DNA from: an uncultured Neomegalonema sp.
Lineage (GTDB): Bacteria > Pseudomonadota > Alphaproteobacteria > Rhodobacterales > Rhodobacteraceae
Assembly: GCA_937911325.1 (NCBI GenBank)
Contig: CALDSD010000101.1
Span: forward strand, 1 to 64,000
DNA: 64,000 nt
Direction of reading: 5' to 3'
Below the pieces are notes generated by a model, which worked only from the letters and a program-made list of their open reading frames with translations, did no database searches and was not told the origin of the DNA. Positions 6,050-28,991 of the stretch are shown piece by piece. The translations under genes were made by a program, and so were the position numbers. Positions within the stretch are counted from its first letter, which is position 1. Each line of letters opens with the position of its first letter.

Positions 6050-6153
6050 GTCGGCTGTTCCGTTCAGATCTGAAGTCATCGAATGCAAGTCTGTCAGAGC
6101 TGCGTCGCTGATGACAGTCGCAGCTTGCCGGAGGAGGACCGGCCCAAACGCCG

Positions 6154-7071
6154 TCACATCGGACTGGGCCGCCCCCGCTTCAGGCGCGAAGAGGATCTCA
6201 ATTCGAGGACGGCGCGAAGCGCGACTGCGAAGATAACGATCGCGCCGCCGACAAGAGTAAGCTCTGTCGGGATCTCGTTGACGAATAGCCAGACCCAGAT
6301 CGGGCCGAGCGCAAATTCAAGAAGCATGAAAAGGGTAAGCTCCGCCGCAGCGAGATGGCGCGACGCCGCGACGAACAACGCGTTTGCAAATCCCGACAGC
6401 ACTCCGCCCAACAAGAAGCACAGCAGAATGTCCTGCGTGGAAAGGTCGAACCGACCCCACCGCCAAACGCCGGACACGATGAGAATGATGACGCCTGAGA
6501 CGATCAAAGTCGGCAGCATGTCGATCTGCCGGTTCCTGCGAACGATGATCGCAAAGCCTGAAAAACAGATCGCGGTGACGAGCGCCATCAGGTTGCCGTA
6601 GCTGGACCCGACCCCGACGCCCTCGATCATCATCACGCCGACGCCGATCGCGGCGGCGACCATGGTCGCCAGCGTCGCGCGACCGAGCGGCTCGCGGAGG
6701 AGCAGCCAGGCCAACGCCGCCGTGATGAAGGGGATCGCGCTGAGCGTGAACAGGGTGTTCGCGACTGTCGTGTTGGTGATCGCTTGAAGAAACGCCATGC
6801 CGGCCAGCGCCAGGCATGCGCCGCCCAGCAAACCCGGAGCGCCGATCTTTCTGACCTCCGCGAGCGTCCTGTCTCGGTGGCGCAGGATCATGATCAAGGA
6901 GATCGCCGCGAGCAGCGCCAGGGCTCGGAAAAAGTTGATCTGCCAGGCGTCGCTGGTCTCCATGCTGCGCAACACAAGGCCGCCGAAGCTGATGCAGACC
7001 GAGCTGACGACCATCAGCAGCATGGCGACGGCGCGCGGGTCGGTGCTCACTGAGGTGGTCGCATGCGGCAT
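6154..7071 (-). CDS. EamA/DMT-family transporter 1
   Basis: 305-aa membrane protein with ten hydrophobic segments in two repeated EamA halves (for example LNFFRALALLAAISLIM-like and LNLMALVTAICFSGFAIIV-like stretches). DMT carriers move amino acids, amines or other small metabolites, often as exporters. It lies 25 bases downstream of a second EamA gene and its stop abuts or overlaps the possible GTG start of the demethylase gene, so the three leftward genes probably share a transcript from the divergent promoter region near 8072-8223. The substrate cannot be read from sequence; context suggests an amine or an intermediate of its breakdown. Confidence 0.8.
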   Translation of the reverse strand: MPHATTSVSTDPRAVAMLLMVVSSVCISFGGLVLRSMETSDAWQINFFRALALLAAISLIMILRHRDRTLAEVRKIGAPGLLGGACLALAGMAFLQAITNTTVANTLFTLSAIPFITAALAWLLLREPLGRATLATMVAAAIGVGVMMIEGVGVGSSYGNLMALVTAICFSGFAIIVRRNRQIDMLPTLIVSGVIILIVSGVWRWGRFDLSTQDILLCFLLGGVLSGFANALFVAASRHLAAAELTLFMLLEFALGPIWVWLFVNEIPTELTLVGGAIVIFAVALRAVLELRSSSRLKRGRPSPM

Positions 7072-7096
7072 GTCACTCGTCTCGTCCGATCATCCA

Positions 7097-8071
7097 TCAT
7101 CGTCTGTCGCTCTGGTCGTTGTCCGTCGCGTAGGGGCCGCCGTTTGCGGATGACGCGTGAAGCGGCGTTGTCTTTTGCGACGCGGAGTAACGCAGTCTGC
7201 GCTCTCGATAGACGATCATCAGTCCGCCGAAGACGATCAGCAACGCGCCTGGAAACAAGTCCTCAACCGGCGCCTCGCCAAAGAAGATCCAACCCAAGCT
7301 AAAAGCGATCGGGATGCCGAAATAATTGAAGGGCGCGAGATTGCTTGGCTCGGTCATTCGATAGGCGATGATCAGGCAGAGCACGGCGCAACCGCCGAAG
7401 GCGCCCATCAAAACGATCAATAAGAAATCCGAAAGGCTGACGATCGGGGTGAAGCCGCCAAGCGCTGTGGCGAGCGCGACCGAGCCGACCGCTGCGACAG
7501 CCGAGGAATAGAGATTGAAAAGCGGCGTCGGCACGTCGGGGTCGATCAGACGCGCCGTGACGCCGGTAAACGCGTAGAGCGCGGCTGCGCCGACCGGAAG
7601 CAGCATGTGCCACGAAAACGTGTCTGCGCCCGGCTTGGTGATCAGCAGAACGCCGATGAAGCCGATCGCGACGGCCGACCAGCGCACCGCGCCGACGCGC
7701 TCTCCCAGGATCGGCACGGCGAGGGCCGTCGTAAACAGAGCGGTCGAATAAGAGATCGTCGTCGCAGTGGCGAACGCCATCAACCCCAGCGAGAGATAGA
7801 ACAACAGTTGAGCAAAGGTGACGGCGACGCCGCGCCAGACCGCCAGGCGCCACTGCCGCAAATGCAAGCTGCCGCCGCTATCGCGCCACGCCGCGCTTGT
7901 CCACAGGGCGAGAGCGCTGGGGAGCAAGCCAAACACGTTTCGATAAGCCGACAGCTCAGCGGCGCTGTAGACCGGGGACAAGTACTTGATGATGAGGCCC
8001 ATCAGATCGAACAGAACGAGCGCGGCGATGCTGATCGCAATAGCCAGAACCGCGTCGTCTGTTCGTCTCAT
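7097..8071 (-). CDS. EamA/DMT-family transporter 2
   Basis: 324-aa ten-segment EamA carrier, a paralogue of the neighbour at 6154-7071. The start at 8071 (MRRTDDAVLAIAISIAALVLFDLMG) places a hydrophobic first helix right after a short basic end, as expected; the longer open frame to 8185 adds a non-membrane stretch with no family look. The C-terminal tail is polar. Two EamA proteins in tandem may form a heterodimeric carrier, as seen for paired small multidrug-resistance proteins, but here each already has ten helices, so they more likely have different substrates. Confidence 0.8.
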   Translation of the reverse strand: MRRTDDAVLAIAISIAALVLFDLMGLIIKYLSPVYSAAELSAYRNVFGLLPSALALWTSAAWRDSGGSLHLRQWRLAVWRGVAVTFAQLLFYLSLGLMAFATATTISYSTALFTTALAVPILGERVGAVRWSAVAIGFIGVLLITKPGADTFSWHMLLPVGAAALYAFTGVTARLIDPDVPTPLFNLYSSAVAAVGSVALATALGGFTPIVSLSDFLLIVLMGAFGGCAVLCLIIAYRMTEPSNLAPFNYFGIPIAFSLGWIFFGEAPVEDLFPGALLIVFGGLMIVYRERRLRYSASQKTTPLHASSANGGPYATDNDQSDRR

Positions 8072-8223: not shown

Positions 8224-9363
8224 GTGACCGATGACGATGCCAGCACCTCGTTACCCCGAGAGGAACTCGCTCAGGCGTCGGCTCCCATCGCGACAGCGCG
8301 CTCAATGCCAGCCGGTTTCTATACAGATCCCGCTGTGTTCGCCGCCGAGCGACGCGATGTTTTCCTGAAGCACTGGTTCTTCGTCGGTCGCGAAGACAGC
8401 TTGCCCGATCCTGGCGACTTCCGAGCGATCGAGACGCCCGGCGGCCCAGCCTTTCTGATCCGCGGCGAGGATGGCGAGCTTCGGGCGTTTGCGAACTTCT
8501 GCCGGCATCGCGGTTCCATTCTCGTCGAGGGTTCGGGAAATCAGAAGCGGCTCGTCTGCCCCTATCATGCATGGAGCTATTTCGCCGACGGGCGCCTTTA
8601 CGGCTGTCCTGACATGGAAGACGCACAGGGGTTCGATCGGGTTGAGAACGGGCTTTTGCCCATCCGGCTAGAGCGTTGGGCCGGGTTTGTTTTCCTCACT
8701 TATGCGCAAGACGCGCCGCCGCTGTTGGATCATCTGGGCGATCTTCCCGCGCACATGGCGTCGCATCGCCCGGCGGAGATGCGCCATGTCTGGACCCTGA
8801 CGCTCGACGTCGCCTGCAACTGGAAACTGCTCCTCGAAAACGCCATGGAGACCTATCACACCGGAACGGTGCATCGTGACAGCGTCGGCGCGCAGACCTC
8901 ACGCACGCTGCGCACGCAAGGGCAATGGTTCTGCATTCAAGTGCTCTCGGGTCGCAGCATCGCGACGCTGCCAGGCGCGCCGCCGAGTTTTCCTGCGATC
9001 GACGGGTTGGACGAGGAGGCGCGGCGGGGAACCTATTTCACGGCGATCATGCCGACCTGCCAGCTTGTCTTCGCGCAAGACTGCTTGTGGTGGCTGAATG
9101 TTCGACCTGTCGCCGAGAACAAATCCGTGCTCGAGATCGGCGGATGCTTTCCCGAAGCCGCAGTCGCCGATCCCGACTTCGAGGCAAAGGCCGCGCCCTA
9201 TTTTGAACGTTGGGAGCAGGTCGGGCGCGAGGATGTCGGTATTCTGGAAAAACAGCAGCATGCGCTTGGATCGGTCCTCCACCGTCCGGGTCCGCTCTCT
9301 GGTCGGGACGACATGGTCCAGGCCATCGGCGTGTGGGTTCTGGATCGACTAGGATCGTCATAG
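8224..9363 (+). CDS. Rieske-type ring-hydroxylating oxygenase (GbcA/CntA group), copy 1
   Basis: 379-aa oxygenase alpha subunit. The Rieske [2Fe-2S] ligands are C93-x-H95 and C112-x2-H115 (CRHRG...CPYHAW). The mononuclear iron motif is ENAMETYHTGTVH with H212 and H217; the bridging position before it is E209 where naphthalene dioxygenase has Asp. Glu at this site is a known trait of the carnitine oxygenase CntA. Members of this group hydroxylate N-methyl groups or C-N bonds of quaternary amines (glycine betaine, carnitine, stachydrine). The GTG start at 8224 follows GGAG at 8213-8216. No reductase partner gene is visible nearby. It diverges from the EamA/demethylase arm and precedes the AraC-type regulator. 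Confidence 0.8.
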   Translation: MTDDDASTSLPREELAQASAPIATARSMPAGFYTDPAVFAAERRDVFLKHWFFVGREDSLPDPGDFRAIETPGGPAFLIRGEDGELRAFANFCRHRGSILVEGSGNQKRLVCPYHAWSYFADGRLYGCPDMEDAQGFDRVENGLLPIRLERWAGFVFLTYAQDAPPLLDHLGDLPAHMASHRPAEMRHVWTLTLDVACNWKLLLENAMETYHTGTVHRDSVGAQTSRTLRTQGQWFCIQVLSGRSIATLPGAPPSFPAIDGLDEEARRGTYFTAIMPTCQLVFAQDCLWWLNVRPVAENKSVLEIGGCFPEAAVADPDFEAKAAPYFERWEQVGREDVGILEKQQHALGSVLHRPGPLSGRDDMVQAIGVWVLDRLGSS

Positions 9364-9439: not shown

Positions 9440-10477
9440 GTGCTTGCGCCAATGCCGTTCTCTGAAGACGATCCGGAAACGCTCGCGATAATCGTCACGC
9501 CGCATTTCAATCTCGCGACGACGACGGGTTTCATCGATCCGTTTCGGGCGGCGAATTATCTTGAAGGCAAAACGCTCTATCGTTGGCGGCTCTTCTCGTT
9601 GGAGGGCGGTCCGGTCGAGGCCAGCAACGGGATGACGATCGACGCCGAGCCGCTGGCCAGCATCAAGGTTCGCCCGGATCTTGTGGTCATCTCTTCAAGC
9701 TGGGCGCCCGAACAATATGCGCATCCGCTCATTCACGGCGCATTGCGGCGTTGGGCTCGACAAGGCGCCACCACCATCGGCCTGGACACAGGCGCGTTCC
9801 TTCTGGCTGGCGCGGGTTTGCTGTCGGGTCGCCGTGCGACCGTGCATTACGAGCATTACGACGCCTTTGAAGAGCTGGCGCGGGATGTCGAGGTCTGCAC
9901 CGATCTCTTTGTCGTCGATGGTCCCTGCATCACCTGTTGCGGCGGGGGCGCGTCGGTCGATCTGGCGCTTCAGATCATTCGCGAGCGTCACGGAGCGGGG
10001 CTCTCGAATTCAAGCGCTCGATACATCTTTCACGAGCGGAGCCGACCTCCGGGCGCTCAGCAGAACCCCGGCCTGATCGAACCGTTAGGCGGACTTGCGC
10101 CCGAAAAGCTGCGGCGCGCGATCGCCGTTATGGAGGCTAACCTCGAGGACCCGCTGACGATCCCCGAGATCTGCGCCGGCGTTGATCTTTCTCAGCGCCA
10201 GTTGGAGCGGCTGTTTCAGCAATATGTTCGCACATCGCCAAAGCTCTATTACCGCGACATCCGGTTGGACCGCGCGCGCGGTTTGGTCACGCAGACGACT
10301 CTGCCGCTGAAGGAGGTCGCCATCGCCTGCGGTTTCGCCAGTCAGGAACATTTCTCACGCGTGTATCGCGCGCGCTTTGGCGTGACGCCAAGCACGGATC
10401 GTGTCGAGGGGCGCGTGCGGTTCGAGTTTCGCGCATGGCCGATGCACCGCCCCGGCGCCCATTCTGACGCACCGTGA
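9440..10477 (+). CDS. GlxA-type AraC regulator with DJ-1/PfpI-like sensor (GbdR/CdhR-like)
   Basis: 345-aa transcription regulator. Residues about 10-185 form a class-I glutamine-amidotransferase-like (DJ-1/PfpI) domain, which in this group binds the inducing amine. Residues about 220-325 are the double helix-turn-helix AraC domain (LTIPEICAGVDLSQRQLERLFQQY and LPLKEVAIACGFASQEHFSRVYRARFGVTPS). GbdR (betaine) and CdhR (carnitine) of Pseudomonas have this layout. Its position between two Rieske oxygenase genes and upstream of the carnitine-type operon makes it the likely activator of the cluster. The start could be GTG 9440 or ATG 9452; neither has a strong ribosome site. Confidence 0.8.
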   Translation: MLAPMPFSEDDPETLAIIVTPHFNLATTTGFIDPFRAANYLEGKTLYRWRLFSLEGGPVEASNGMTIDAEPLASIKVRPDLVVISSSWAPEQYAHPLIHGALRRWARQGATTIGLDTGAFLLAGAGLLSGRRATVHYEHYDAFEELARDVEVCTDLFVVDGPCITCCGGGASVDLALQIIRERHGAGLSNSSARYIFHERSRPPGAQQNPGLIEPLGGLAPEKLRRAIAVMEANLEDPLTIPEICAGVDLSQRQLERLFQQYVRTSPKLYYRDIRLDRARGLVTQTTLPLKEVAIACGFASQEHFSRVYRARFGVTPSTDRVEGRVRFEFRAWPMHRPGAHSDAP

Positions 10478-10623
10478 AGCGAAGGGCGATGTTCCTCGCA
10501 TCTCATGTCGAATAAAATCAAATCCATGCCGCTCTGTGCATGGGATCCGACGGCGCTGCGGCCACTCTTGGATGGTGATCTTTGTCGCCGGCCGCGCAGC
10601 GGACGGCTTCTCGGAGGCCCGCC

Positions 10624-11763
10624 ATGACCAGGATGCCGACCAAGTCAGAGTTCAAATCGATCCGGAGAGGCTTTGACGCGAACCCGGCGCGGTCGATGTC
10701 CCTGAAGGCGGACGCCTACATTGACCCCAGCTGGTTCAAAGCCGATCAGGAGTTGGTCATCGCGAAGACGTGGCAATGGGTCTGCCATGTCGAGAAGGTC
10801 CGTGAGCCGGGCGCGTTCGCGACCTTCGAGATCGCTGGCCGGCCCATTGCGGTTGTGCGCGATCGCGACGGCGTGCTGCGCGCCTTTTACAATGTCTGCA
10901 AACACCGGGCGCATGAGCTCTTGCGGGGAGAGGGCCAGACCACGCGCATCATGTGCCCATACCACGCTTGGGTGTATCGCCTGGACGGCCAGCTCGTGCG
11001 CGCGCCGCACTCGGAAAGTCTGGAGAGCTTCGAGCCTGAGAAGATCTGCCTCGACGAAGTTCAAGTCGAAGAGTTCTGCGGCTTCATCTACGTGAACCTC
11101 GATCCCAAAGCGCCGTCGCTGTCCTCGCAAACGGGCGAGTTGGAGATGGAGATCAAGCACTGGGCGCCCGACATCGACGGGCTCACCTTCGGCCACCGTC
11201 TGACCTATGACATCAAGTCGAACTGGAAGAACGTCGTCGACAATTTCCTCGAGTGTTACCACTGCCCGACGGCGCACAAGGACTTTTGCACTCTGGTCGA
11301 TATGGACACCTACAAGGTGACCACGCACGGCATTTACTCGAGCCACATGGCGGACGCTGGCCAGGGCGCAAACAGCGCCTATGACGTGTCCAACGCCACC
11401 GTGAAGACCCATGCCGTCTGGTGGTTGCGGCCGACGACCTGTCTGATGCGCTACCCGGGCCGGTCTTCAATGATCGTGCTGAACATCATCCCCGTCGGCC
11501 CCGAGCGCACGCTGGAGACCTACGACTTCTTCCTGGAGACGCCAGAGCCGAACGCGGCTGAGAAAGAGTCGATCCGCTATCTCGACGAGGTGCTTCAGGC
11601 CGAAGACATCGCCATCGTTGAAAGCGTGCAAAAGGGCATGAGCACGCCGGCGTTTGATCAGGGGCGGATCGTTCACGACCCCGAGGGCTCGGGCAAGTCC
11701 GAGCACGCGGTGCACCATTTCCATGGACTGGTCTTAGATGCGTATGCCAACTGTCATGGATGA
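10624..11763 (+). CDS. Rieske-type oxygenase (GbcA/CntA group), copy 2
   Basis: 379-aa oxygenase alpha subunit, a distant paralogue of the 8224-9363 protein. Rieske ligands are C92-x-H94 and C111-x2-H114 (CKHRA...CPYHAW). The catalytic iron motif is NFLECYHCPTAH with H213 and H218, and E210 at the bridging position. NFLECYHCP is highly typical of glycine betaine monooxygenase (GbcA) and relatives. The start at 10624 is set by GGAGG six bases upstream. The expected reaction is NAD(P)H- and reductase-dependent oxidation of a quaternary amine; a GbcB/CntB-like reductase is not in the window. It immediately precedes the choline-sulfatase operon. Confidence 0.85.
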   Translation: MTRMPTKSEFKSIRRGFDANPARSMSLKADAYIDPSWFKADQELVIAKTWQWVCHVEKVREPGAFATFEIAGRPIAVVRDRDGVLRAFYNVCKHRAHELLRGEGQTTRIMCPYHAWVYRLDGQLVRAPHSESLESFEPEKICLDEVQVEEFCGFIYVNLDPKAPSLSSQTGELEMEIKHWAPDIDGLTFGHRLTYDIKSNWKNVVDNFLECYHCPTAHKDFCTLVDMDTYKVTTHGIYSSHMADAGQGANSAYDVSNATVKTHAVWWLRPTTCLMRYPGRSSMIVLNIIPVGPERTLETYDFFLETPEPNAAEKESIRYLDEVLQAEDIAIVESVQKGMSTPAFDQGRIVHDPEGSGKSEHAVHHFHGLVLDAYANCHG

Positions 11764-11856
11764 GACGCGGACGCCCAAAGCCGATGCACTTCCAGCCGCC
11801 GCCGGAGCGCGCCTGATAAGCCGTCAACGCAACGCTTTTCAGGAAGAACGCTCATC

Positions 11857-13383
11857 ATGAAAAAACCAAACATCGTGCTGGTCATGGCCGACCAGCTGGC
11901 GCCGCAGTTCACCGGCGCGTACGGCCATCCTCTGGTGAAGACCCCGCATATGGACGCGCTGGCGGCGCGGGGCGCCAAATTCGACGCCGCCTATTGCAGC
12001 GCGCCGCTGTGCGCGCCGTCGCGCTTCAGCTTCATGTCGGGTCAACTGGTCACGCGGATCGCCGCTTATGACAACGCCTCCGAGTTCCCGGCATCCGTGC
12101 CGACCTTCGCGCATCATCTGCGGCGCGCCGGGTATCGGACGTGCTTGTCGGGCAAGATGCACTTCGTCGGCCCGGATCAGCTGCACGGCTTCGAAGAGAG
12201 GCTGACCACGGACATCTACCCCTCGGACCATGCCTGGACGCCGGACTGGGAGCTTCCCGACGAGCGCATCGACAAGTGGTACCACAACATGGATTCGGTG
12301 CGGGAGGCGGGCGTCGCGGCGACCACGTTCCAGATCGAGTATGATGAAGAAACGGCCTTCTTCGCCCGCCGGCGGATCTTTGAATACGCGATGCAGAAGG
12401 TCGAACCGTTCTGCATGGTCGTCAGTTTCATCCACCCTCACGATCCCTATGTCGCACGACCTGAATGGTGGGATCTCTACGATCACGACGCCATCGACAT
12501 GCCGGGATCGCCCGAGGCCGAAGACCCGCATTCCAAACGGTTGATGAAGGGCATCGAGGCGGATGTCGTCGCCGTTTCCGACGAAGAGGTCCGCAACGCC
12601 CGACACGCCTATTACGCCAATACCTCGTACTTCGATTCGAAGGTGGGCGCCGTCGTGCAGGCGCTGGAAGAGAGCGGCCAGCTCGACGATACGATCGTCA
12701 TCGTCACGGCGGATCACGGCGACATGCTCGGCGAACGGGGGCTTTGGTACAAGATGACCTTCTTCGAGCACTCCGGGCGCGTGCCGATGATCGTCGCCGG
12801 TCCGGGCGTGGCGCGCCGCGACATCGCCGAGCCGTGTTCGCTGGTGGATCTGCTGCCGACGTTTCTCGACGTCGCCGGCGTCGGCCAGCAGGAGTTCGGC
12901 GCGCCAATCGACGGACGGTCGTTATGGCCGCTGGCGAATGGATCGGCCGAGGACGACGCGTCGGGCGGCGAGGCGATCGGGGAGTATTGCGCCGAATGCG
13001 CGTCGCACCCGGTGTTCATGATCCGGCGCGGTCGTTTCAAATACATTCACTGCGACGTGGACCCGCCGCAGCTCTTCGACCTGGAGGCCGATCCGCACGA
13101 GCTCGTGAACCTCGCTGACGATCCGGAGCATGCCCAGATCGCCGCCGCCTTCGCAACGGAAGTGGCGCAGCGTTGGGACAGCGACCGGATCCGCGAGAAC
13201 GTCATCGCCACGCAGCGACAACGCCGCGCCGTGCATGCGGCGATGGAGGCTGGGCAACTGACCTCTTGGGACTACCAGCCCAAACGCGACGCCTCACAGG
13301 AGTTCGTCCGCAACCACATGGACTGGACGGAAGCCGCCGAGAAGACACGCTTTCCGCCGCAGAAGGGGGAGGAGCCGGCATGA
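11857..13383 (+). CDS. betC: Choline-sulfatase (BetC-like)
   Basis: 508-aa type I sulfatase that should hydrolyse choline-O-sulfate to choline and sulfate in the cytoplasm; no signal peptide is present. The formylglycine motif is C52-A-P-S-R56, the modified cysteine being C52. Metal-binding residues include D12 in VMADQ and the TADHGDMLGERG segment. The block MHFVGPDQLHGFEERLTTD followed by YHNMDSVREAGVA is strongly BetC-like and separates it from arylsulfatases. Length fits the family. It heads a run of six genes, four of whose five junctions overlap by 1-4 bases. Its stop overlaps the SDR start by ATGA. A sulfated relative such as carnitine sulfate is a possible alternative substrate given the operon. 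Confidence 0.87.
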   Translation: MKKPNIVLVMADQLAPQFTGAYGHPLVKTPHMDALAARGAKFDAAYCSAPLCAPSRFSFMSGQLVTRIAAYDNASEFPASVPTFAHHLRRAGYRTCLSGKMHFVGPDQLHGFEERLTTDIYPSDHAWTPDWELPDERIDKWYHNMDSVREAGVAATTFQIEYDEETAFFARRRIFEYAMQKVEPFCMVVSFIHPHDPYVARPEWWDLYDHDAIDMPGSPEAEDPHSKRLMKGIEADVVAVSDEEVRNARHAYYANTSYFDSKVGAVVQALEESGQLDDTIVIVTADHGDMLGERGLWYKMTFFEHSGRVPMIVAGPGVARRDIAEPCSLVDLLPTFLDVAGVGQQEFGAPIDGRSLWPLANGSAEDDASGGEAIGEYCAECASHPVFMIRRGRFKYIHCDVDPPQLFDLEADPHELVNLADDPEHAQIAAAFATEVAQRWDSDRIRENVIATQRQRRAVHAAMEAGQLTSWDYQPKRDASQEFVRNHMDWTEAAEKTRFPPQKGEEPA

Positions 13384-14168
13384 GCGCGCGTCTCGCTGGG
13401 AAGGTGACGCTGGTGACCGGGGGGCGCGGCGGCATCGGCCGCGCCATCTGCGCGCGTTTCGCTCGCGAAGGCGCCAAGGTCTACGCCGCCGATCTCACGC
13501 CGGGCGGCAGTCTCGAAAACGACGCCGCCGAAGCCGCTCAGTTCCTCAAGCTCGACGTCACGTCCGAGGACGACGCGAAGGCCGCGATGGCCTTCGTAAA
13601 TGCAGAGGCCGGCCGGCTGGATGTGCTGGTCAACGCGGCGGGGATCGAGATCGAGGAGACGATCGAGACCACCACGCTCGAGCAGTGGAACAAGATCTTC
13701 GCTGTCAACGTCACCGGCGTCTTCTTGACGAGCAAGCATGCGCTGCCGTTGCTGCGGAAGTCTTCGGGCGCCAGCGTGATCAACTTCGGCTCCTACGACG
13801 GGTTCATCGCCGATCCGGGCCTGGCCGCCTATTGTGCGACCAAGGGCGCCGTGCATGCGCTGACCCGCGCCATGGCCTGCGACCACGGCCCCGAGGGCAT
13901 CCGCGTGAATGCGATCTGCCCGGGCTATGTCGACACGCCAATGCTGCAGAGCTTCTTTGAAGGCGACGGCTCTGGCGGCGGCGGCGGCACGATCGAGACG
14001 CTGCAGCAGGCCGTGCGCGACGTCCATCCGATGCGCACTTACGGCACGCCCGAAGACATCGCCAATCTGGTGCTCTGGCTCGCGTCGGATGAGGCGCGCT
14101 ACGCCTCGGGCCAGCTCTGGGTGCTCGATGGGGGGCTGTCCGCGCAAGTCCAGCAGATGAAGCTCTGA
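13380..14168 (+). CDS. SDR-family dehydrogenase 1 of the amine operon
   Basis: 262-aa classical short-chain dehydrogenase. It has the nucleotide motif TGGRGGIGRAI (TGxxxGxG), the NAAG motif (VNAAGIEIEE), catalytic Ser in FGSYDG, and Y-x3-K as YCATK. The start at 13380 overlaps the betC stop by ATGA; the open frame continues upstream inside betC but only this start gives the usual N-terminus (LAGKVTLVTGG). A glycine-rich insert (GDGSGGGGGT) near residue 200 is unusual. It likely oxidises a hydroxyl group of an operon intermediate to a ketone or aldehyde; the exact substrate cannot be told. Confidence 0.83.
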   Translation: MSARLAGKVTLVTGGRGGIGRAICARFAREGAKVYAADLTPGGSLENDAAEAAQFLKLDVTSEDDAKAAMAFVNAEAGRLDVLVNAAGIEIEETIETTTLEQWNKIFAVNVTGVFLTSKHALPLLRKSSGASVINFGSYDGFIADPGLAAYCATKGAVHALTRAMACDHGPEGIRVNAICPGYVDTPMLQSFFEGDGSGGGGGTIETLQQAVRDVHPMRTYGTPEDIANLVLWLASDEARYASGQLWVLDGGLSAQVQQMKL

Positions 14169-15097
14169 TGCCCAAACCCGTCATCATCACCTGCGCGCCG
14201 ACGGGCGGCATTCACACCCCGACGATGTCGCCTTATCTGCCCATTACGCCAGATCAGATCGCACAAGCGTCGATCGAGGCGGCGGAGGCCGGCGCGTCGA
14301 TCATTCATCTTCACGCGCGAGACCCGGAAACCGGCAAGCCCGATCCACGCGCCGAGACGTTCATGCGGTTCCTGCCCCGGATCAAGCAGTCGACCGACGC
14401 GGTGATCAACGTCTCGACCGGCGGTGGGCTCGGCATGACCCGCGAAGAACGTCTGCGCGCGGCGCTGACCGCCTCGCCCGAGATGGCGTCGCTCAATGTC
14501 GGGTCGCTCAACTTCGGCATCTTTCCGATGCTCGAAAAGTACTCCGACTGGAAGCATGACTGGGAGCCCGCGTTTCTCGAGATGACGCGGGACTTCATTT
14601 TCCGCAACACGTTCACGGATATCGAGTTCATCCTCAAGGAACTTGGCGAGGGCCACGGCACGCGCTTCGAGTTCGAATGCTACGACCTCGGCCACCTCTA
14701 CAACCTCGCCTGGTTCGTGGATAAGGGCGTGGTCAAGCCGCCCTTCTTTATCCAGATGGTGTTCGGGATCCTGGGCGGCGTCGGCGCAGACCCGGACAAT
14801 CTCATGCACATGCACACGATCGCGCAGAAGCTGTTCGGCGATCAGTACGAATGGTCGGTCCTGGCGGCGGGACGCCATCAGATGCCCTTCGCCACGCAAT
14901 CGGCGATGCTCGGCGGCAATCTGCGGGTGGGGCTCGAGGACGGCCTGTTCATCGGCAAGGGCGAGCTGGCGACATCGAACGCCGAGCAGGTCCGCAAGAT
15001 CAGATCGATCATCGAGAACCTCGGGCTGACCGTGGCGTCCCCGGCGGAGGCGCGGGCGCGTCTCGCGCTCAAGGGCGGCGATCAGGTCGGCTTCTAG
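14168..15097 (+). CDS. Beta-keto acid cleavage enzyme (BKACE, DUF849)
   Basis: 309-aa zinc-dependent BKACE protein. The family condenses a beta-keto acid with acetyl-CoA and releases acetoacetate plus a new acyl-CoA. Visible hallmarks are the metal histidines in IIHLHARDPETGKPDPR and the C-terminal LGGNLRVGLEDGLFIGKG. In carnitine breakdown a BKACE turns 3-dehydrocarnitine into glycine betainyl-CoA and acetoacetate. The carnitine-type dehydrogenase three genes downstream makes that the most likely role here. It starts on the last base of the upstream TGA (TGATG). Confidence 0.85.
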   Translation: MPKPVIITCAPTGGIHTPTMSPYLPITPDQIAQASIEAAEAGASIIHLHARDPETGKPDPRAETFMRFLPRIKQSTDAVINVSTGGGLGMTREERLRAALTASPEMASLNVGSLNFGIFPMLEKYSDWKHDWEPAFLEMTRDFIFRNTFTDIEFILKELGEGHGTRFEFECYDLGHLYNLAWFVDKGVVKPPFFIQMVFGILGGVGADPDNLMHMHTIAQKLFGDQYEWSVLAAGRHQMPFATQSAMLGGNLRVGLEDGLFIGKGELATSNAEQVRKIRSIIENLGLTVASPAEARARLALKGGDQVGF

Positions 15098-15118
15098 GCG
15101 AGAAACGGGAGGACGCTC

Positions 15119-16540
15119 ATGCAGGAGAAGATGCTCATAAATGGGGAACTGATCGCAGGCGAAGGCGAGGCTCTGCCGGTGATCGACCCCGCCACAGGCG
15201 CGGAGATCGGCCGGATCGCCGAGGCGTCCGGTGCGCAGGTCGACGCCGCCGCAGCGGCGGCGGAAGAGGCCTTCGAGAGTTGGTCGCAGACCACGCCGGC
15301 CGAGCGCTCGGCCCTGCTGCTTCAGCTCGCCGACGCGATCGAGGCCAACCAAGAAGAGCTGGCTGGGCTGGAGAGCCAGGATTGCGGCAAGCCCTGGCCG
15401 TCCGCGCGCGACGACGAGATGCCCCTGACCATCGACGTCTTCCGCTTTCTGGCCGGCGCCGCGCGGACGATGTCGGGGTCGGCGGCGGGCGAGTACGTCG
15501 AAGGCCACACCTCGATGATCCGGCGCGACCCGGTTGGTCCGGTCGCGGCGATCGCGCCCTGGAACTACCCGCTGATGATGGCGTCCTGGAAACTCGCGGC
15601 GCCGTTGGCGGCCGGTTGCACGCTGGTGTTGAAACCCTCGGAAGTCACGCCGCTTTCAACCCTGCGCGCCGCCGAGATCATGAACGAGATCCTCCCCAAG
15701 GGCGTGGTGAACGTCCTTCACGGACGCGGCCCAAGCATCGGCGACCGGATCATCAACCACCCGTCGATGGAGGGGATCACCGTGACCGGATCGCCTGCGA
15801 CCGGCATGGCGGCGATGCGGGCGGCGTCGAACCAGATCCGTCATGTGCATCTGGAGCTTGGCGGAAAGGCTCCGGTGATCGTGTTCGACGACGCGGACAT
15901 CGACGCCGTGGTCGAGACGATCCGGGGCGGTTCCTACTTCAATGCGGGTCAGGATTGCGCGCAGCCGTGTCGGATCATGGCGTCCGATGCGATCTATGAG
16001 CGGCTGGTCGCCGAAACGGCCTCTGCGGTCGAGAGCATCAAAACCGGCGCGCCGCATGACGACGGCGTGGAAATGGGGCCGATCATCTCGTCGACGCAAC
16101 GTGACCGGGTCGCAGGTTTCGTCGATCGCGCGCGCAGCGGCGCAGAGATTGCGGCTGGCGGCGCCGGCGAAGATCGACCGGGCTTCTTCTATCGCCCGCC
16201 GGTTGTCGCCAATGTCGACAACGACGCCGAGATCGCCTGTTCGGAGGTGTTTGGTCCGGTGGTGACGATCTCGCGCTTCTCCGACGCCGAGGATGCGCTC
16301 AAGTGGGCGAATGCGAGCCGTTACGGCCTCGCTTCGTCGGTCTGGACCAGAGACGTGGGTCGCGCGATGCGGATGTGCGCGCGGCTTCGCTATGGCTTCA
16401 CTTGGGTCAATACCCACGGCGTGGGCACGCCGGAGATGCCCTGGGCGGCGATGAAGGGGTCGGGCACGGGCTGCGACATGTCCGTCTATAGTCTCGACGC
16501 CTATACCTCGGTGCGGCACGTGATGCTGGCGCACGGATGA
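15119..16540 (+). CDS. NAD(P)-dependent aldehyde dehydrogenase (betaine-aldehyde / aminobutyraldehyde type)
   Basis: 473-aa ALDH-superfamily enzyme. Key features are the [10 protein letters not shown] segment, the catalytic Glu in [16 protein letters not shown], and the catalytic Cys in [13 protein letters not shown]. The FNAGQDC context is typical of betaine-aldehyde and 4-aminobutyraldehyde dehydrogenases. It could oxidise betaine aldehyde formed from choline (after BetC), or malic semialdehyde if a CntA-type oxygenase splits carnitine to trimethylamine. No choline dehydrogenase gene is in the window. GGGAGG precedes the ATG by seven bases, and the stop overlaps the next SDR start. Confidence 0.83.
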
Positions 16541-17298
16541 GCCGGTTCTCGGGAAAGGTCGCCGTCGTCACCGGCGGTGGGCGTGGGATCGGCCGCGCCA
16601 TTGTCGACGCATTTGTTGATGAAGGCGCGTCTGTAATGACCTGTGGCCGCGGACCTCGGCCGGACGAGCTGTCGAGCGAGGTCCATTGGGCCCGGGCCGA
16701 CGTCTCCAGACCGGAGGACGTCGAGAGGTTGCGTTCGGCCGTCGAAGACACGTTCGGGCCGGTCCAGATCCTCGTGAACAACGCGGGCGTCCAAGTCGAG
16801 AAGTCCGTCGTCGAGAGCTCCGACGAGGACTGGGATCTGGTCGTCGGCGCAAACTGCCGGGGCGTCTTCAACTGCTGCCGAGCGTTCATTCCAGCCATGC
16901 AAAGCGCGGGCGGCGGCGCGATCGTCAACATCGGGTCGATCTCCGGCGTCAACGCTGATCCGAACATGGCGCTCTACAATGCGTCGAAAGCCTTTGTTCA
17001 TGGGCTGACGAGGTCGATCGCCGTGGATCATGGGCCGCTGGTGCGGTGCAACGCCGTTCGGCCCGGCTGGATCATGACCGAGATGGCCGATGCGGCCTTT
17101 GCGCTCGCCGATGATCCTCAAAGAGCGAAGCAAGACGCGTTGGCCCGTCATCCGGCAGGACGTTTCGGGTCGCCGGAGGACATTGCGCGCCTGGTGCTCT
17201 GGCTTGCTTCGGACGAGGCGGCGTTCGTCACCGGTCAAGAGTTCACAGCGGATGGCGGCCTGACCGCCGCCTCGCCATTGCAGCCAGGATTGTTCTGA
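16537..17298 (+). CDS. SDR-family dehydrogenase 2 of the amine operon
   Basis: 253-aa classical SDR. It has [21 protein letters not shown], a Ser in IGSISG, and the Y-x3-K pair in YNASK. The C-terminus has the usual [19 protein letters not shown]. It is paralogous to the 13380-14168 protein, so the operon carries two non-identical SDRs plus a separate 3-hydroxyacyl-type dehydrogenase. This suggests two different hydroxyl oxidations, or oxidation of both stereoisomers of one substrate (D- and L-carnitine for example). ATGA overlap with the ALDH gene and TGATG with the next. Confidence 0.83.
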
Positions 17299-18233
17299 TG
17301 ACAGAGATTGAAAACACTGCCGTTCTGGGCGCTGGCGTGATCGGCGCGAGCTGGGTTTCACTGTTTCTCGCTGCGGGCAAGAACGTGTCGGTCCATGACC
17401 CAAGCGCGGCCGCCGAGGCGAGCGTGCGCCGCTATGTCGAGGACGCGTGGCCGACGCTCGAGCAACTTGGCCTGACGCAAAATGGCGATCCGGCCGCGTT
17501 GACGTTCCATGCCGACGCCGCCGCCGCGGTCGAGGGCGCGAGCTTCATTCAGGAAAGCGTGCCGGAGCGGATTGCGATCAAGCATGCGCTTTACGAGACG
17601 ATCGAACCTGCGCTCGCCGCAGGGGCGGTGGTCGCTTCTTCAGCATCGGGTCTGACGCTTTCCGAGATGCAACTCGGCTGGCGCAACCCCGGACGTCTGG
17701 TGCTTGGCCACCCATTCAACCCGCCGCATCTCATCCCACTGGTCGAAGTGATGGGGAACGACCGGACCGATCAAGGCGTGGTCGAGACTGCGGAGGCATT
17801 CTACCAGGCGGTCGGCAAAGTCACGATACGGGTCAAGAAGGAAGTGCCCGGCCATGTCGCAAACCGTCTGCAGGCGGCGCTGTGGCGCGAGGTGATCCAC
17901 CTGGTCAAGGAAGGCGTCGCCAGCGTCGAGGACGTCGACAAGGCCGTGTGGGCGGGTCCGGGTCTTCGTTGGGCTGCGATGGGGCCGACGATGTTGTTCC
18001 ATCTGGGCGCAGGCGAAGGCGGCTTGCCGGAGTTCTGTGAACGATACTCCGAGAGCTTCAATCGCTGGTGGGACGATCTTGGAGTGCTCCACCTCGATCC
18101 GGAGCTTTCGGACCTTTTGGCCCAGGGCGTCGGCGAGGAAGCTCGCGGAGAGGCGCCGGAGGCGTTGTCCGCCCGTCGCGACGCCTTGATCAGCGCAATG
18201 CAAACGGCGAGCGCGCCTCTGCGCCGCGGCTAG
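17298..18233 (+). CDS. lcdH: L-carnitine 3-dehydrogenase-like protein (3-hydroxyacyl-CoA dehydrogenase family)
   Basis: 311-aa NAD-dependent dehydrogenase. The Rossmann motif LGAGVIGASW is at residues 9-18, and the family signature LGHPFNPPHLIPLVEVMG and a VANRLQAALWREVIHLV helix follow. The segments WAGPGLRWAAMGPTMLFHLGAGEGG and the tail EGLxxxRD-like region match carnitine dehydrogenases, which convert L-carnitine to 3-dehydrocarnitine. Many bacterial homologues carry an extra C-terminal thioesterase domain of about 150 residues; this one stops at 311 aa and no betainyl-CoA thioesterase gene is seen in the operon. Last gene of the coupled run, followed by an inverted-repeat region. Confidence 0.82.
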   Translation: MTEIENTAVLGAGVIGASWVSLFLAAGKNVSVHDPSAAAEASVRRYVEDAWPTLEQLGLTQNGDPAALTFHADAAAAVEGASFIQESVPERIAIKHALYETIEPALAAGAVVASSASGLTLSEMQLGWRNPGRLVLGHPFNPPHLIPLVEVMGNDRTDQGVVETAEAFYQAVGKVTIRVKKEVPGHVANRLQAALWREVIHLVKEGVASVEDVDKAVWAGPGLRWAAMGPTMLFHLGAGEGGLPEFCERYSESFNRWWDDLGVLHLDPELSDLLAQGVGEEARGEAPEALSARRDALISAMQTASAPLRRG

Positions 18234-18410: not shown

Positions 18411-18863
18411 ATGACCCGTCTGACTGTCAACGGATCCGCCGTCGAGATCGACGCGCCCCCGGAAACGCCGCTGTTGATCGCATTGCGCGAGCACCTGGGG
18501 CTCACCGGCTCAAAATATGGGTGCGGGGCGGCGATGTGCGGCTCGTGCACCGTCCATTTGGACGGCGCCGCGACTTACGCCTGCGTTACTCCGATTGGGG
18601 ACGTCGAAGGGGCCGATGTTCGAACGATTGAAGGCCTGTCGGAGAACGGAGACCATCCTGTGCAGCTCGCCTGGATCGCCGAGCAGGTTCCGCAGTGCGG
18701 ATACTGTCAGTCGGGTCAGATCATGCGCGCCGCCGCGCTCCTTGAGGAAAACCCACGCCCGTCGCGCGAAGAGATCATCGACGCGATGAGCAGCAACCTG
18801 TGCCGCTGCGGCACCTATGTCCGCATCGTGAAGGCTGTCGAGCGCGCCGCGAGCGAAGCTTAA
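18411..18863 (+). CDS. [2Fe-2S] subunit of a molybdenum hydroxylase (IorA/CoxS-like)
   Basis: 150-aa small subunit of a xanthine-oxidase-family enzyme. It binds two [2Fe-2S] clusters: the plant-type site C38/C43/C46/C58 ([11 protein letters not shown]...YAC) and the C-terminal site [11 protein letters not shown] with LCRCGTYVR. It delivers electrons from the molybdenum subunit encoded directly downstream, whose ATG follows after a GGGAGG site. Two-subunit enzymes of this kind (isoquinoline 1-oxidoreductase, some aldehyde or nicotinate-type hydroxylases) lack an FAD subunit and pass electrons to a cytochrome c. Confidence 0.85.
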
Positions 18864-18874
18864 GGGAGGTCAGG

Positions 18875-21085
18875 ATGAGCAACTCAGCGCAACTCTCTGT
18901 CAGCCGTCGGGCCTTTCTTGCGAGCGCCGGGGCGACCGCCGGTTTCGCCTTCGCGATTGGCGTCGACGGTCTTCAACGCGTCGCCAACGCGGGAACCGCC
19001 GCAAGTTCCGCCAAACCGAACATCTGGGTGTCGATCGCCGCGAGCGGCAAGATCCGGATCATCTACCCTGCGACGGATCTTGGCCAAGGCTCCACCACCG
19101 CCCTGCCGCTGATGCTGGCCGAGGAGCTCGACGCGAACTGGTCGGACGTGGAGGTCGAACAGCTCAACGTCGATGATCGGCGCTACGGCAACCCGAAATT
19201 CGGCATGGTGCGCTACACGGCCGGCAGCAGCGCGGTTCAAGGCTATTACATGCCGCTTCGCCTCGCTGGCGCACAGGCGAGGTCCATGCTGATCTCCGCA
19301 GCGGCCGCGCATTGGGCGGTTCCAGAGGATCGCCTGCGGACCGAGCCGAGCGCGGTCGTGGATCACGAAACCGGCGAGCGACTGAGCTACGGAGAGATCG
19401 CCGCCTTGCCGGAGCTGGCGACCACGCGGGTTCCAGATGCGTCGGAGGCGCTGCTGAAGCCGACCTCGGATTTCCGGTTGATCGGGGCGGACGTTGCGCG
19501 GATCGACATCCCCGCGAAAAGCCGCGGCGCCTATCAATACGGCGTCGACGTCCGCGTGCCGGAGATGCTCTACGCGACGGTCGTGCGGGCTCCGGTCGAG
19601 GACGAAACACCCATCTCCGTCGATGAGACCGGCGCGTTGGCGATACCGGGCGTTCTGCGCACCGTCACGCTGCCCGACGGCGTCGCGGTGATTGCGGAAA
19701 CACAGGAAGCCGCGTTGTTCGGCAAGTTTGCGTTGTCGATCGAATGGAGTGAGACATCGTCGTCGCGCGGCAACAACAGCGATCAGGATCTGATCGACTA
19801 CGCGGCGACCGCCGAGGATCTGTCGCAGGACGGCGCCGTCTGGCGCGAGACGGGCGACGCCGGCGCAGCAGTCGGCGGCGCGGACCGACAGGTGGAGCGG
19901 ACGTATCTGTCTGACTACGCCTATCATGCGCAGTTCGAGCCGATGGGCGCTGTCGCCTCGGTTGAGAACGATGGCGCGAGCGCCGAAGTCTGGATCGCAA
20001 GCCAAACCCAAAGCTGGTCCTTGCGCACCGTGACGGAAACGCTCGGCATCGACGCCGAGCAGGTCACCTTGCACATGATGCCGATGGGCGGGAGTTTCGG
20101 AAGACGAACCGAACTGACCCAACCCTATTTGCGAGACGCGCTGCTGACGTCGAAGGCTGTGGGCCGCCCTGTAAAGGTGCTCTGGACCCGCGAAGACGAC
20201 GTCAAGTTTGGCGCCTATCGGCCCGCGGCGGCTCAGCGGATGATCGCTGGTCTGAAAGCCGAAGGCGGTTTGCAAGGGTGGCGGCATCGCGTCGCCGCGC
20301 CGTCGGTGATCGCGTATTTCAACCCGCTGCGCTGGGCGCAGGTCGAGCCGCAGGACATCATTACGATGCGCGGCGCCGAGAACAAGTTCTACGATCTCGG
20401 CGACATGCGGGCCGAGCATCTGATCACCGATCGGCGGGCGCGTCTTGCACCGTGGCGCGGCATCGGCGCCGCCTATACGAGTTTCGCGGCTGAAGCGTTC
20501 ATGGACGAACTCGCGGAGGAGGCGGGCGCAGACCCGGTGGAGTTCCGCCTCGCGCTGCTCAAGGACAATCCGAGGGGCCGTTGGCTGGTCGAGCGTGTCC
20601 TCGAGATGTCAGACTGGAAGCGTGCGCGGGACGGGACGGCGCTTGGCCTTGCGTTCGCCGGCTATGGCGACTCGATGGCGGCCGGCGTCGCCGAGATCAG
20701 CCTTGATCGGGAGAGCGGCGTCATCGCTGTGAAGAACTTCTGGACCACCGTTGACGCCGGGGTGATCGTCTCGCCGGACAACTCGCTCGCCCAGATCGAA
20801 GGCGGCGTCGTGCACGGGGTTGGCAGCGCGCTCAAGGAGCGGATCACCATCGTGGACGGCGAAGTGCAACAGAACAACTTCTACGACTACGAGATCTTGC
20901 GGATCGACGAGACGCCGGAAATCGCGGTCGATATCGCGCAGGTGGACGCGCCGCCAACCAGCATTGGCGAAGTCAGCACGCCCGTCGTCGCCCCCGCGAT
21001 CGCCAATGCGTTCTTCGCGCTGACCGGACGTCGACTGCGGCATATGCCGTTCACCCCCGAGCGGGTTCTGGCGGCCTTGGCGTAA
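18875..21085 (+). CDS. Molybdopterin-binding subunit of a molybdenum hydroxylase (IorB-like), Tat-exported
   Basis: 736-aa large subunit. A twin-arginine signal (SRRAFLASAGATAGFAFAIG) sends the folded complex to the periplasm, carrying the IorA-like subunit along. Molybdopterin-contact segments include GQGSTTALPLMLAEEL, MMPMGGSFGRR and the C-terminal IGEVSTPVVAPAIANAFFALTG, which holds the catalytic Glu region. The ATG at 18875 is fixed by GGGAGGT 5 bases upstream; a longer frame from 18800 lies inside iorA. The substrate is not evident. Between quaternary-amine genes and an MttB/reductase pair, an aldehyde or N-heterocycle substrate is plausible. Confidence 0.85.
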   Translation: MSNSAQLSVSRRAFLASAGATAGFAFAIGVDGLQRVANAGTAASSAKPNIWVSIAASGKIRIIYPATDLGQGSTTALPLMLAEELDANWSDVEVEQLNVDDRRYGNPKFGMVRYTAGSSAVQGYYMPLRLAGAQARSMLISAAAAHWAVPEDRLRTEPSAVVDHETGERLSYGEIAALPELATTRVPDASEALLKPTSDFRLIGADVARIDIPAKSRGAYQYGVDVRVPEMLYATVVRAPVEDETPISVDETGALAIPGVLRTVTLPDGVAVIAETQEAALFGKFALSIEWSETSSSRGNNSDQDLIDYAATAEDLSQDGAVWRETGDAGAAVGGADRQVERTYLSDYAYHAQFEPMGAVASVENDGASAEVWIASQTQSWSLRTVTETLGIDAEQVTLHMMPMGGSFGRRTELTQPYLRDALLTSKAVGRPVKVLWTREDDVKFGAYRPAAAQRMIAGLKAEGGLQGWRHRVAAPSVIAYFNPLRWAQVEPQDIITMRGAENKFYDLGDMRAEHLITDRRARLAPWRGIGAAYTSFAAEAFMDELAEEAGADPVEFRLALLKDNPRGRWLVERVLEMSDWKRARDGTALGLAFAGYGDSMAAGVAEISLDRESGVIAVKNFWTTVDAGVIVSPDNSLAQIEGGVVHGVGSALKERITIVDGEVQQNNFYDYEILRIDETPEIAVDIAQVDAPPTSIGEVSTPVVAPAIANAFFALTGRRLRHMPFTPERVLAALA

Positions 21086-21118: not shown

Positions 21119-22054
21119 TTACGCGCGCGGTTTCTCAAAGGCCTCTTCGCGCCGCCTCAACACCGCGACCAAGGTATCGTTGTAGGGCGTTGCAATCCCA
21201 TGGCGTCGACCGAGGATCGGCACTTGCCCATTGATGGCGTCCAACTCGGACAGACGGCCCGCCAGATGATCAAGCAGCATCGACGGTCGCGCTTCAGGCA
21301 TCCGCGCGGCAAAGGCGGAAACATAGGCGACCGGATCGTCGAACGAGAGGTTCACACGCAGAGCCTGGGCCAGCGCATAGGCCTCACGCATCGCGCCAAG
21401 AGCGATCTCCCATCGCGCTGGATCCGCCATGAGTTCGCCGACCGTCACGCCAAAGACGGTGCAGGGAGCGCTCAGCGTGACGTTGCATATGAACTTCTCC
21501 CAGATCAGCTGCTCGATGTCTTCGAAAGCGCGAGCAGTAAAGCCGGCGCCCCGCCACAACTCGGCGAGGCGTTCGGCTCGGTCAGATTTTCCTCCGTCAA
21601 TCTCTCCGATACGGATCAGCTTCATCGCGTTGTGATGCACGTGCCCCGGCGCGCGTATCGATGCGCCGAACCCGTCCGCCACGCCCAAAAGCACGTTGCG
21701 GGTCTCCATGTGCTCGGAGATCCGCTCGGCCGCGCCGAGGCCGTTCTGGATCGTCAGAACAAGCGCGCCGTCGACCATCACCGGCGCAATCGCGCGCCCC
21801 GCCGCGCCCACGCCGCTGGCTTTGGTCGCAATTACGATCAGGTCGCACGGGCCGGCCTCGGCCATGTCGGTCGTCGCGCGGATGTCCGCCACGACGCGGT
21901 CTCCGCTTGCGCCCTCGATCCTGAGACCGTTCGCGTTGATCGCGGCGATATGCTCTGACCAGGGATCGACGACCCAGACCTCGTATCCCGCTTCGCGGAA
22001 CAGCGCCGCATAAACCGACCCCATCGCGCCGGCGCCGTAGACTGCAATCTTCAT
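21119..22054 (-). CDS. Ketopantoate-reductase-family (PanE/ApbA-like) dehydrogenase
   Basis: 311-aa NAD(P)-dependent reductase. GAGAMGSVYAALFREAGYEV is the Rossmann motif and the C-terminal ApbA domain has a conserved lysine in EKFICNVTLSAPCTVFG and an Asn/Ser-rich region with SMLLDHLAGRLSELDAINGQ. Canonical PanE makes pantoate for CoA synthesis. Here the ATG overlaps the stop of the mttB-like gene by ATGA, so it is more likely a catabolic dehydrogenase acting on a 2-keto or 2-hydroxy acid linked to the methyltransferase substrate. Genome-wide presence of another panE would support that. Confidence 0.8.
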   Translation of the reverse strand: MKIAVYGAGAMGSVYAALFREAGYEVWVVDPWSEHIAAINANGLRIEGASGDRVVADIRATTDMAEAGPCDLIVIATKASGVGAAGRAIAPVMVDGALVLTIQNGLGAAERISEHMETRNVLLGVADGFGASIRAPGHVHHNAMKLIRIGEIDGGKSDRAERLAELWRGAGFTARAFEDIEQLIWEKFICNVTLSAPCTVFGVTVGELMADPARWEIALGAMREAYALAQALRVNLSFDDPVAYVSAFAARMPEARPSMLLDHLAGRLSELDAINGQVPILGRRHGIATPYNDTLVAVLRRREEAFEKPRA

Positions 22055-27957: not shown

Positions 27958-27973
27958 GAAGGTTATGCCTCAT

Positions 27974-27994
27974 ATAAAAACGATCGATTTTTAT
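27974..27994. promoter_or_regulatory. AT-rich dyad in the divergent LysR/SDR promoter
   Basis: ATAAAAA (27974-27980) and TTTTTAT (27988-27994) separated by CGATCGA. Looser symmetry extends outward (GCCT on the left, AGGC on the right near 28004). It lies 17 bases upstream of the LysR start and 153 bases before the SDR start, where a LysR autoregulatory/activating site would be expected. It is by far the most AT-rich stretch nearby. Confidence 0.5.
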
Positions 27995-28146
27995 TATGCA
28001 TAGGCTTTGTCTACTTCTCCAGCAGGACATGATGCACGAGGCGATGTCGCGGATGGGTTTTGGCGGCGCGGAACGATCGTCGATCGAAACAGGGTTCTCC
28101 GATTGTCTCGACGAAGCGGCAATCGATCCACTGAGGAGCTGAAGAA

Positions 28147-28881: not shown

Positions 28882-28892
28882 TCTCCCATATA

Positions 28893-28923: not shown

Positions 28924-28991
28924 TCGGTCCGAGCTGGTTTCAGCGGTCGCTAGCGGAGACAGCCGATCGCGGAAGCCTGCAACTCAGGTGA

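Follow-up and report, generated by a model that had tools for sequence, protein, structure and literature searches.

The window analysed here is a 64,000-nucleotide stretch of DNA from an uncultured Neomegalonema sp. (contig CALDSD010000101.1, assembly GCA_937911325.1). At positions 9440 to 18233 it exhibits a gene block combining a choline-sulfatase-family sulfatase with a Rieske oxygenase, a BKACE and several dehydrogenases. This block probably serves to degrade a nitrogen compound resembling choline or carnitine, which can arrive sulfated. More specifically, and with a confidence somewhat short of even, we interpret it as a module for the catabolism of a betaine or quaternary-ammonium alcohol that is not carnitine, with an optional first step in which the sulfatase takes an O-sulfate off a masked form. 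We favour a module because the block recurs in other genomes with different gene orders and because linkage to the sulfatase appears to have been gained or lost repeatedly.

Organization and recurrence of the block

Protein families were assigned by NCBIfam and Pfam profile scans of the window proteins. Six genes, all on the + strand, lie between 11857 and 18233, and four of their five junctions, read directly from the open frames, overlap by 1 or 4 bases. The sulfatase (11857-13383) is followed by a short-chain dehydrogenase (SDR1, 13380-14168; PF13561, 208 bits), whose start ATG at 13380 overlaps the sulfatase stop (ATGA, 4 shared bases). The BKACE (14168-15097) is joined to SDR1 by a 1-base overlap (TGATG). 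An aldehyde dehydrogenase of the aminobutyraldehyde dehydrogenase subfamily (ALDH, 15119-16540; NF010000, 683 bits with a cut-off of 615; Aldedh, 520 bits) comes after a 21-base gap, the sole junction without overlap. A second short-chain dehydrogenase (SDR2, 16537-17298; PF13561, 200 bits) overlaps the ALDH by 4 bases and shares 1 base with the last gene, coding for an enzyme of the 3-hydroxyacyl-CoA/carnitine-dehydrogenase type (CDH, 17298-18233). The initial annotation had described this set of six genes with all but one junction overlapping, and the protein families and the recurrence in other genomes agree with it. The boundary it drew (11857-18233) was too narrow: a Rieske oxygenase (RO2, 10582-11763), ending 93 bases upstream of the sulfatase on the same strand, and an AraC-family regulator with a DJ-1/PfpI domain (9440-10477, +; PF12833, PF01965) were missed, and both recur with the block. 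The likely start of RO2 is an in-frame ATG at 10624. The regulator is GbdR-like, with 237 bits to NF052371 GbdR, below the cut-off of 480. Promoter- and terminator-like patterns are no commoner than in shuffles, and an Rfam scan gave no match at the gathering threshold. No betI, betA or betB product was found over cut-off among the block proteins, and the block contains no GMC choline dehydrogenase; the ALDH stays below both BetB cut-offs (431 versus 669 bits, and 391 versus 593 bits).

A search of named genomes with the sulfatase gave 355 relatives among 359 stretches, the best 80 of which were kept; the locus counts below refer to these 80. Using tblastn with the window proteins and a context script, we counted a locus as a block when RO2 and one or more of SDR1, SDR2 and CDH, each at no less than 48% identity, lay within 9 kb of the sulfatase. 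The block adjoins the sulfatase in 32 loci, six exhibit a partial block and 42 none, the contig extending less than 5 kb on one side in 24 of the latter. Gene order varies among the 32: RO2 precedes the sulfatase in 19 and follows it in nine, the sulfatase comes last in three, and it lies further away in one. SDR1 was found in 31, SDR2 in 25, CDH in 24, BKACE in 19 and ALDH in 12; 23 have an orthologue of the AraC regulator no further than 9 kb from the sulfatase. Some of these loci are cut by contig ends; the 22 loci of at least 19 kb hold SDR1 (22), SDR2 (20), CDH (20), AraC (18), BKACE (15) and ALDH (10). The expectation that the whole block would be conserved is borne out as to its recurrence and not as to its composition, as the order changes, the sulfatase is optional, and BKACE and ALDH are often missing. 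Since other genomes repeatedly hold these genes side by side, the block is more than a chance grouping. Carriers are named mostly as alphaproteobacterial, plus Granulosicoccaceae, Arenicellales and one Anaerolineales metagenome-assembled genome (MAG), and include genera with named strains (Ruegeria, Leisingera, Mameliella, Roseovarius and Limibaculum). A ProU-type substrate-binding gene is present in 7/32 block loci and in 5/48 others, with its OpuAC domain confirmed for locus L011.

A sample of 292 genomes of the window's order (113 genera, all labelled as the same family) was searched as well. The sulfatase clade (at least 64% identity, the next matches being at 52% or less) is present in 25 genomes and RO2 in 19, both occurring in 15 (Fisher p = 2e-15 by genome). 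These genomes are not independent, as eight of the 15 belong to one genus; counted by genus, the clade is found in 11, RO2 in nine and both in six (p = 1e-5). CDH at 60% identity or more occurs in 20 of the 292 genomes, 19 besides the window's own at 60-72% identity. RO2 is present in 18 of the 20 and the sulfatase clade in 15, a sixteenth (G021) having a broken sulfatase copy. Beside CDH, counting partial matches and one locus at a contig end, lie SDR2 (19), SDR1 (18), AraC (17), BKACE (15) and ALDH (13). Possibly decaying blocks were seen at L137 (genome G021), where the sulfatase match is in several pieces, and at L122 and L161 (genome G181); L122 holds a 92-residue RO2 remnant with SDR2 and CDH after it.

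The sulfatase as an optional member

The idea that the sulfatase defines the block was rejected, as it stands after RO2, before RO2, at the block end or elsewhere in the genome. Whole genomes were searched for RO2 in the case of 36 of the 48 loci lacking the full block in cis; it was found in 17 at 59% identity or more and in 20 at E <= 1e-60. SDR1 or SDR2 adjoins RO2 in 15 of these 17 contexts; the neighbours in L172 are unrelated, and L176 ends at RO2. No sulfatase relative of at least 45% identity was seen in the 17 contexts. On a quick tree of 104 sulfatases, in which 32 of 101 inner branches are poorly supported, linkage to the block requires at least 17 changes (46 linked and 27 unlinked sequences counted, 31 truncated or partial ones standing outside the count). 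Beside unlinked sulfatases, no bet gene was found among eight scanned neighbour proteins from five of ten order genomes and one from L151; the scanned neighbours correspond to type I secretion, peptide-type transport, an acetolactate-synthase-like enzyme, an amidohydrolase-like protein and an anion symporter.

The sulfatase pocket

The block sulfatase passes the choline-sulfatase profile TIGR03417 with 723 bits (cut-off 433) and matches PDB 6fny with 525 bits. It carries CAPSR, a formylglycine-type motif of the form C-x-P-x-R, and a C-terminal Choline_sulf_C domain (PF12411, 73 bits). Its pocket residues were checked in the numbering of the Sinorhizobium meliloti choline sulfatase, with the residue roles given in PMC9063841 and PMC5870055. 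According to these sources, Trp129, His145 and Glu386 form the quaternary-ammonium clamp, Leu499 is a lid residue from the neighbouring subunit, and Asp500 is a gatekeeper together with Asn146. The clamp is present as W127, H143 and E380; Tyr123, Trp143, Tyr144, Asn146 and Asn495 are also kept. Trp142 is replaced by Lys, Leu499 by Trp and Asp500 by Thr.

Trp129, His145, Glu386 and Trp499 are invariant in 95/95 aligned members of the clade. Position 499, which lies over the methyl groups, is Leu in 9/9 canonical choline sulfatases; judged from this alignment, the lid differs from that of the characterised enzyme. Position 500 fails to distinguish the groups (among the 95, Thr in 74 and Asp in 12; Asn in 9/9 canonical enzymes). 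Block-linked sulfatases with pocket residues of their own were not found among the 95, linked and unlinked members exhibiting no clear difference. The coupling of the sulfatase to the block, suggested in the initial annotation, is confirmed by the 32 loci that exhibit it. As the choline-clamp residues are kept and many genomes couple this gene to the block, it is sound to guess that the enzyme acts on a quaternary-ammonium sulfate ester, which these residues make the likely substrate.

The Rieske oxygenase

RO2 belongs to the quaternary-amine group of Rieske oxygenases and is most similar, among solved structures, to CntA (PDB 6y8j, 243 bits; the Stc2 entries 3vca and 3vcp reach 111 bits). Roles of CntA residues are given in PMC7948474 and PMC10952381, the former tying an aromatic residue at CntA Tyr203 to group Va as opposed to the group Vb demethylases. 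The group Va residues tested, namely the equivalents of Glu205 and Cys206/Cys209 and an aromatic residue at 203, are all present in RO2. All 67 aligned rows, the window included and the window's other Rieske oxygenase (RO1) excluded, exhibit the motif VDNFLECYHC (62) or IDNFLECYHC (5), with the bridging Glu, the Cys pair and Phe at the Tyr203 place; the place of CntA Tyr295 is Tyr in 63 rows and Phe in four. Because these residues match the group Va pattern, RO2 is predicted to be probably a C-N cleaving enzyme. RO1 (8224-9363, +) has LENAMETYHT as its motif and lacks both the aromatic residue and the Cys pair seen in RO2.

BKACE, CDH and the carnitine question

The initial annotation had compared the block with the known breakdown of carnitine via 3-dehydrocarnitine and BKACE, and had suggested either parallel use of choline sulfate or an undescribed sulfated beta-hydroxy quaternary amine, for example O-sulfated carnitine, as the entry substrate. 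Neither the BKACE nor the CDH agrees with a carnitine pathway. The block BKACE (PF05853, 349 bits) keeps the equivalents of the catalytic Glu171 and Arg254 of BKACE15, to which it scores 387 bits, and passes NF053538 with 516 bits (cut-off 430). The block BKACEs of L060 and L054 score 508 and 506 bits with this profile, as against 221 and 217 bits for BKACEs of the carnitine-type loci L145 and L133. The reported substrates of BKACE15 are uncharged in the side chain (PMC11961710). By profile score, the block BKACE is of a subfamily linked to uncharged beta-keto acids and not of the dehydrocarnitine type. A second BKACE of the NF053538 type (554 bits), 60% identical to the block BKACE, is encoded at 7014-7904 (-) of contig C61 of the window's genome.

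The assignment of the CDH as a "carnitine-type" dehydrogenase holds at the superfamily level (PF02737, 139 bits) and fails for carnitine dehydrogenase proper, as the protein forms a separate clade and scores 236 bits with NF005716 (cut-off 592) and 257 bits with NF005471 (cut-off 414). All block CDHs listed in an NF005716 search of the 19 RO2 genomes reach at most 254 bits, and a canonical carnitine dehydrogenase over the cut-off is encoded elsewhere in 18 of these genomes (the exception being G232). In the window's genome, contig C92 harbours a separate AraC-BKACE-LcdH carnitine locus, with its BKACE at 27246-28109 and the canonical dehydrogenase at 28148-29563. O-sulfocarnitine was accordingly rejected as the favoured substrate, given this separate locus and the non-carnitine subfamilies of the block CDH and BKACE. 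L133 and L047 have a second, carnitine-like BKACE-AraC-CDH set at a distance of up to about 10 kb from the block or its fragment.

A predicted pathway

The module could operate as follows. The compound would be imported by a betaine-type transporter, which some relatives encode near the block, and the sulfatase, its enzyme class given by family and residues, would free the hydroxyl of the presumed ester. As in CntA, and judging from its active-site residues, RO2 would oxidise the carbon next to the nitrogen, giving trimethylamine and an aldehyde. The ALDH would convert the aldehyde to a beta-hydroxy acid and the CDH-type enzyme would produce the beta-keto acid, the SDRs possibly oxidising further hydroxyls. 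With acetyl-CoA, the BKACE would finally yield acetoacetate and an acyl-CoA, a reaction type known for the family; the subfamily would imply an uncharged side chain. The GbdR-like regulator is probably a sensor of a betaine-type intermediate. RO2, ALDH, CDH and BKACE could conceivably act in turn on a substrate of the form Me3N-CH2-CH2-CH(OH)-R, which would present an uncharged side chain at the BKACE and leave hydroxyls in R to the SDRs.

A broader proposal, which we regard as conceivable though doubtful, is that a dedicated pathway common to marine bacteria handles an O-sulfated quaternary-ammonium metabolite that is undescribed, possibly abundant, and neither choline-O-sulfate nor carnitine; it would lead through desulfation, Rieske C-N cleavage with release of trimethylamine, and beta-oxidation-like steps to the BKACE. 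If true, the sea would contain a sulfated nitrogen compound that has gone unrecognised, and bacteria would have a route returning its sulfate, its nitrogen (possibly as trimethylamine) and its carbon. With named-strain genera among the carriers, the substrate could be approached directly through knockouts and metabolomics. Every protein family in the block is known; the same gene combination was not found described in the open-licence literature searched.

Several points weigh against the module reading. The identity of the substrate and the order of the steps are inferred, and the roles of SDR1 and SDR2 are guesses. BKACE and ALDH are absent from many blocks (present in 19/32 and 12/32), and L120, L128 and L160 are among the blocks that have no sulfatase nearby. 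BKACEs are promiscuous (PMC4922564). C-N cleavage by RO2 is uncertain because group V Rieske enzymes can also demethylate, and no reductase of the CntB type is encoded in the block; in the window's genome PF00970 finds no match and PF00175 only two (one in a 275-aa protein), despite two Rieske oxygenases in the window. As for the sulfatase, the window genome's second BetC-family protein (contig C50, 1486-3009, -; locus L144) lacks the Trp-Tyr-His-Asn of the choline hairpin, and the block sulfatase may be the working choline sulfatase of this genome. Moreover, in none of the ten sulfatase-only genomes of the order sample is there a second BetC-type match (threshold E <= 1e-130), which suggests that the clade can hydrolyse plain choline sulfate.

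Alternative explanations

These last observations lend themselves to another view, which we consider somewhat unlikely: the block would hold an ordinary choline-O-sulfatase in a quaternary-amine neighbourhood, the other genes would serve a different betaine, and the co-location would reflect shared regulation by betaine-type signals. The TIGR03417 score well over the cut-off fits this view, as does the choline clamp in all aligned clade members, linked or unlinked, and the sulfatase-only genomes look as if the clade had replaced the usual enzyme. Of the window genome's proteins over the TIGR03417 cut-off, the block sulfatase alone has the full clamp, and the genome also encodes a BetA over cut-off (C92, 33675-35270). 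The C50 protein (TIGR03417, 609 bits), which keeps Trp129 and Glu386 and has a pipecolate-oxidase-like neighbour (below cut-off), probably acts on another substrate, a warning that the family cut-off is loose. Against a plain choline-O-sulfatase, no choline or betaine-aldehyde dehydrogenase over cut-off was found in the block, and position 499 is Trp throughout the clade and Leu in the nine canonical enzymes. A second BetC-type match is present in 14/15 genomes with both sulfatase and RO2, compared with 0/10 with the sulfatase only and 221/267 without the clade. The second copies fetched from nine of the 13 other block genomes (G145, G197, G278 and G283 left out) are all 502 aa long, with the hairpin GWTPDYRKPGERIDWWYHN and Leu at 499. 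All nine are in a betI-betC-betA-like setting, the flanking gene sizes fitting betI and betA where the contig allows; BetI is over cut-off in 4/4 scanned, BetA likewise in 4/4, and one BetC scores 913 bits with TIGR03417. As a second sulfatase with a canonical hairpin sits in a bet-like operon, the block sulfatase is not the sole choline sulfatase of those nine genomes. Counting the window genome as without one, canonical BetC is found in 13/15 against 0/10 (p = 2e-5 by genome and 0.045 by genus, four of the 13 being uninspected). In the other block genomes, the block sulfatase comes on top of the usual enzyme, an argument for a different substrate; in the window's genome and in the sulfatase-only genomes it may hydrolyse choline sulfate.

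Alternatively, the block may be a gamma-butyrobetaine/carnitine-type route like that of the Arctic SAR11 island, where an SDR would stand in for CHDH and RO2 for BBOX, and the entry substrate would be 4-trimethylammoniobutyl sulfate or a similar compound. The parallel with the island, as PMC12421898 describes it, is step for step, CntA accepts gamma-butyrobetaine according to PMC7948474, the ALDH falls in the aminobutyraldehyde subfamily, and the carnitine-type sets in L133 and L047 are close to the block or its fragment. The block BKACE is nevertheless in the NF053538 subfamily, outside which the BKACEs of two carnitine-type loci fall, and the CDH is outside the curated carnitine dehydrogenases. 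A further count against such a route is that we know of no Rieske butyrobetaine hydroxylase, and on balance we regard it as unlikely. Very unlikely is a dimethylsulfonium analogue such as gonyol as the substrate, the BKACE then yielding a dimethylsulfoniopropionate (DMSP) thioester. Gonyol is a beta-hydroxy acid, but it lacks a sulfate ester. In the Neomegalonema MAG of locus L014, a cupin with a DMSP_lyase domain (PF16867, 52.7 bits, cut-off 27; L014, 3735-4370) directly follows the sulfatase and precedes the BKACE, and gonyol is used by marine bacteria via an unknown route (PMC7221440); the cupin, however, is a single instance, and Rieske group Va is tied to ammonium compounds.

Neighbouring genes

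Directly downstream of the block, a two-subunit molybdenum hydroxylase is encoded at 18411-21085 (+), with a 2Fe-2S subunit and a MoCoBD subunit. About 4 kb from the block, at 22051-23589 (-), lies an MttB-superfamily methyltransferase (PF06253, 403 bits; TIGR02369, 337 bits, cut-off 525), another methylated-amine enzyme. An FMN/FAD oxidoreductase of the old-yellow-enzyme family is located at 4001-6157 (-), and a 52% identical relative follows the block in L175 (14182-16233). In the same locus, a beta-lactamase-family protein (PF00144; 12922-14172) stands directly after the block and is perhaps an esterase removing another ester from the substrate.

Comparison with known systems

The block resembles the bet choline-O-sulfate genes (S. 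meliloti betICBA and those of R. pomeroyi, as described in PMC12442346) in its choline-sulfatase-family enzyme and quaternary-ammonium metabolism. It differs in having no betI, betA or betB over cut-off, in a sulfatase of a separate clade with Trp499, and in its Rieske oxygenase, BKACE and CDH. The CntA/CntB carnitine monooxygenase provides the closest solved relative of RO2, which keeps the group Va residues; in the block, in contrast, RO2 is accompanied by a BKACE and dehydrogenases and by no CntB-type reductase. The AraC-BKACE-LcdH carnitine loci (C92 and L145) are similar in having an AraC-type regulator, a BKACE and a 3-hydroxyacid dehydrogenase, whereas their proteins are 33-36% identical to those of the block and their BKACE falls outside NF053538. 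The caiX-cdhCAB-hocS genes of Pseudomonas are a carnitine locus of this kind. BKACE15 of Paracoccus denitrificans (PDB 8RIO) has the catalytic Glu and Arg in common with the block BKACE, but its gene context is said in PMC11961710 to suggest aromatic degradation. The Arctic SAR11 island comprises a betaine ABC transporter, CHDH, ALDH, CDH, BBOX and BKACE (PMC12421898). BBOX and CHDH there stand against the Rieske oxygenase and SDRs here, and the word "sulfatase" is absent from the main text of PMC12421898. The island shares with the block the logic of a pathway built on CDH, ALDH, BKACE and a betaine transporter, as that paper presents it, and is the nearest published parallel.

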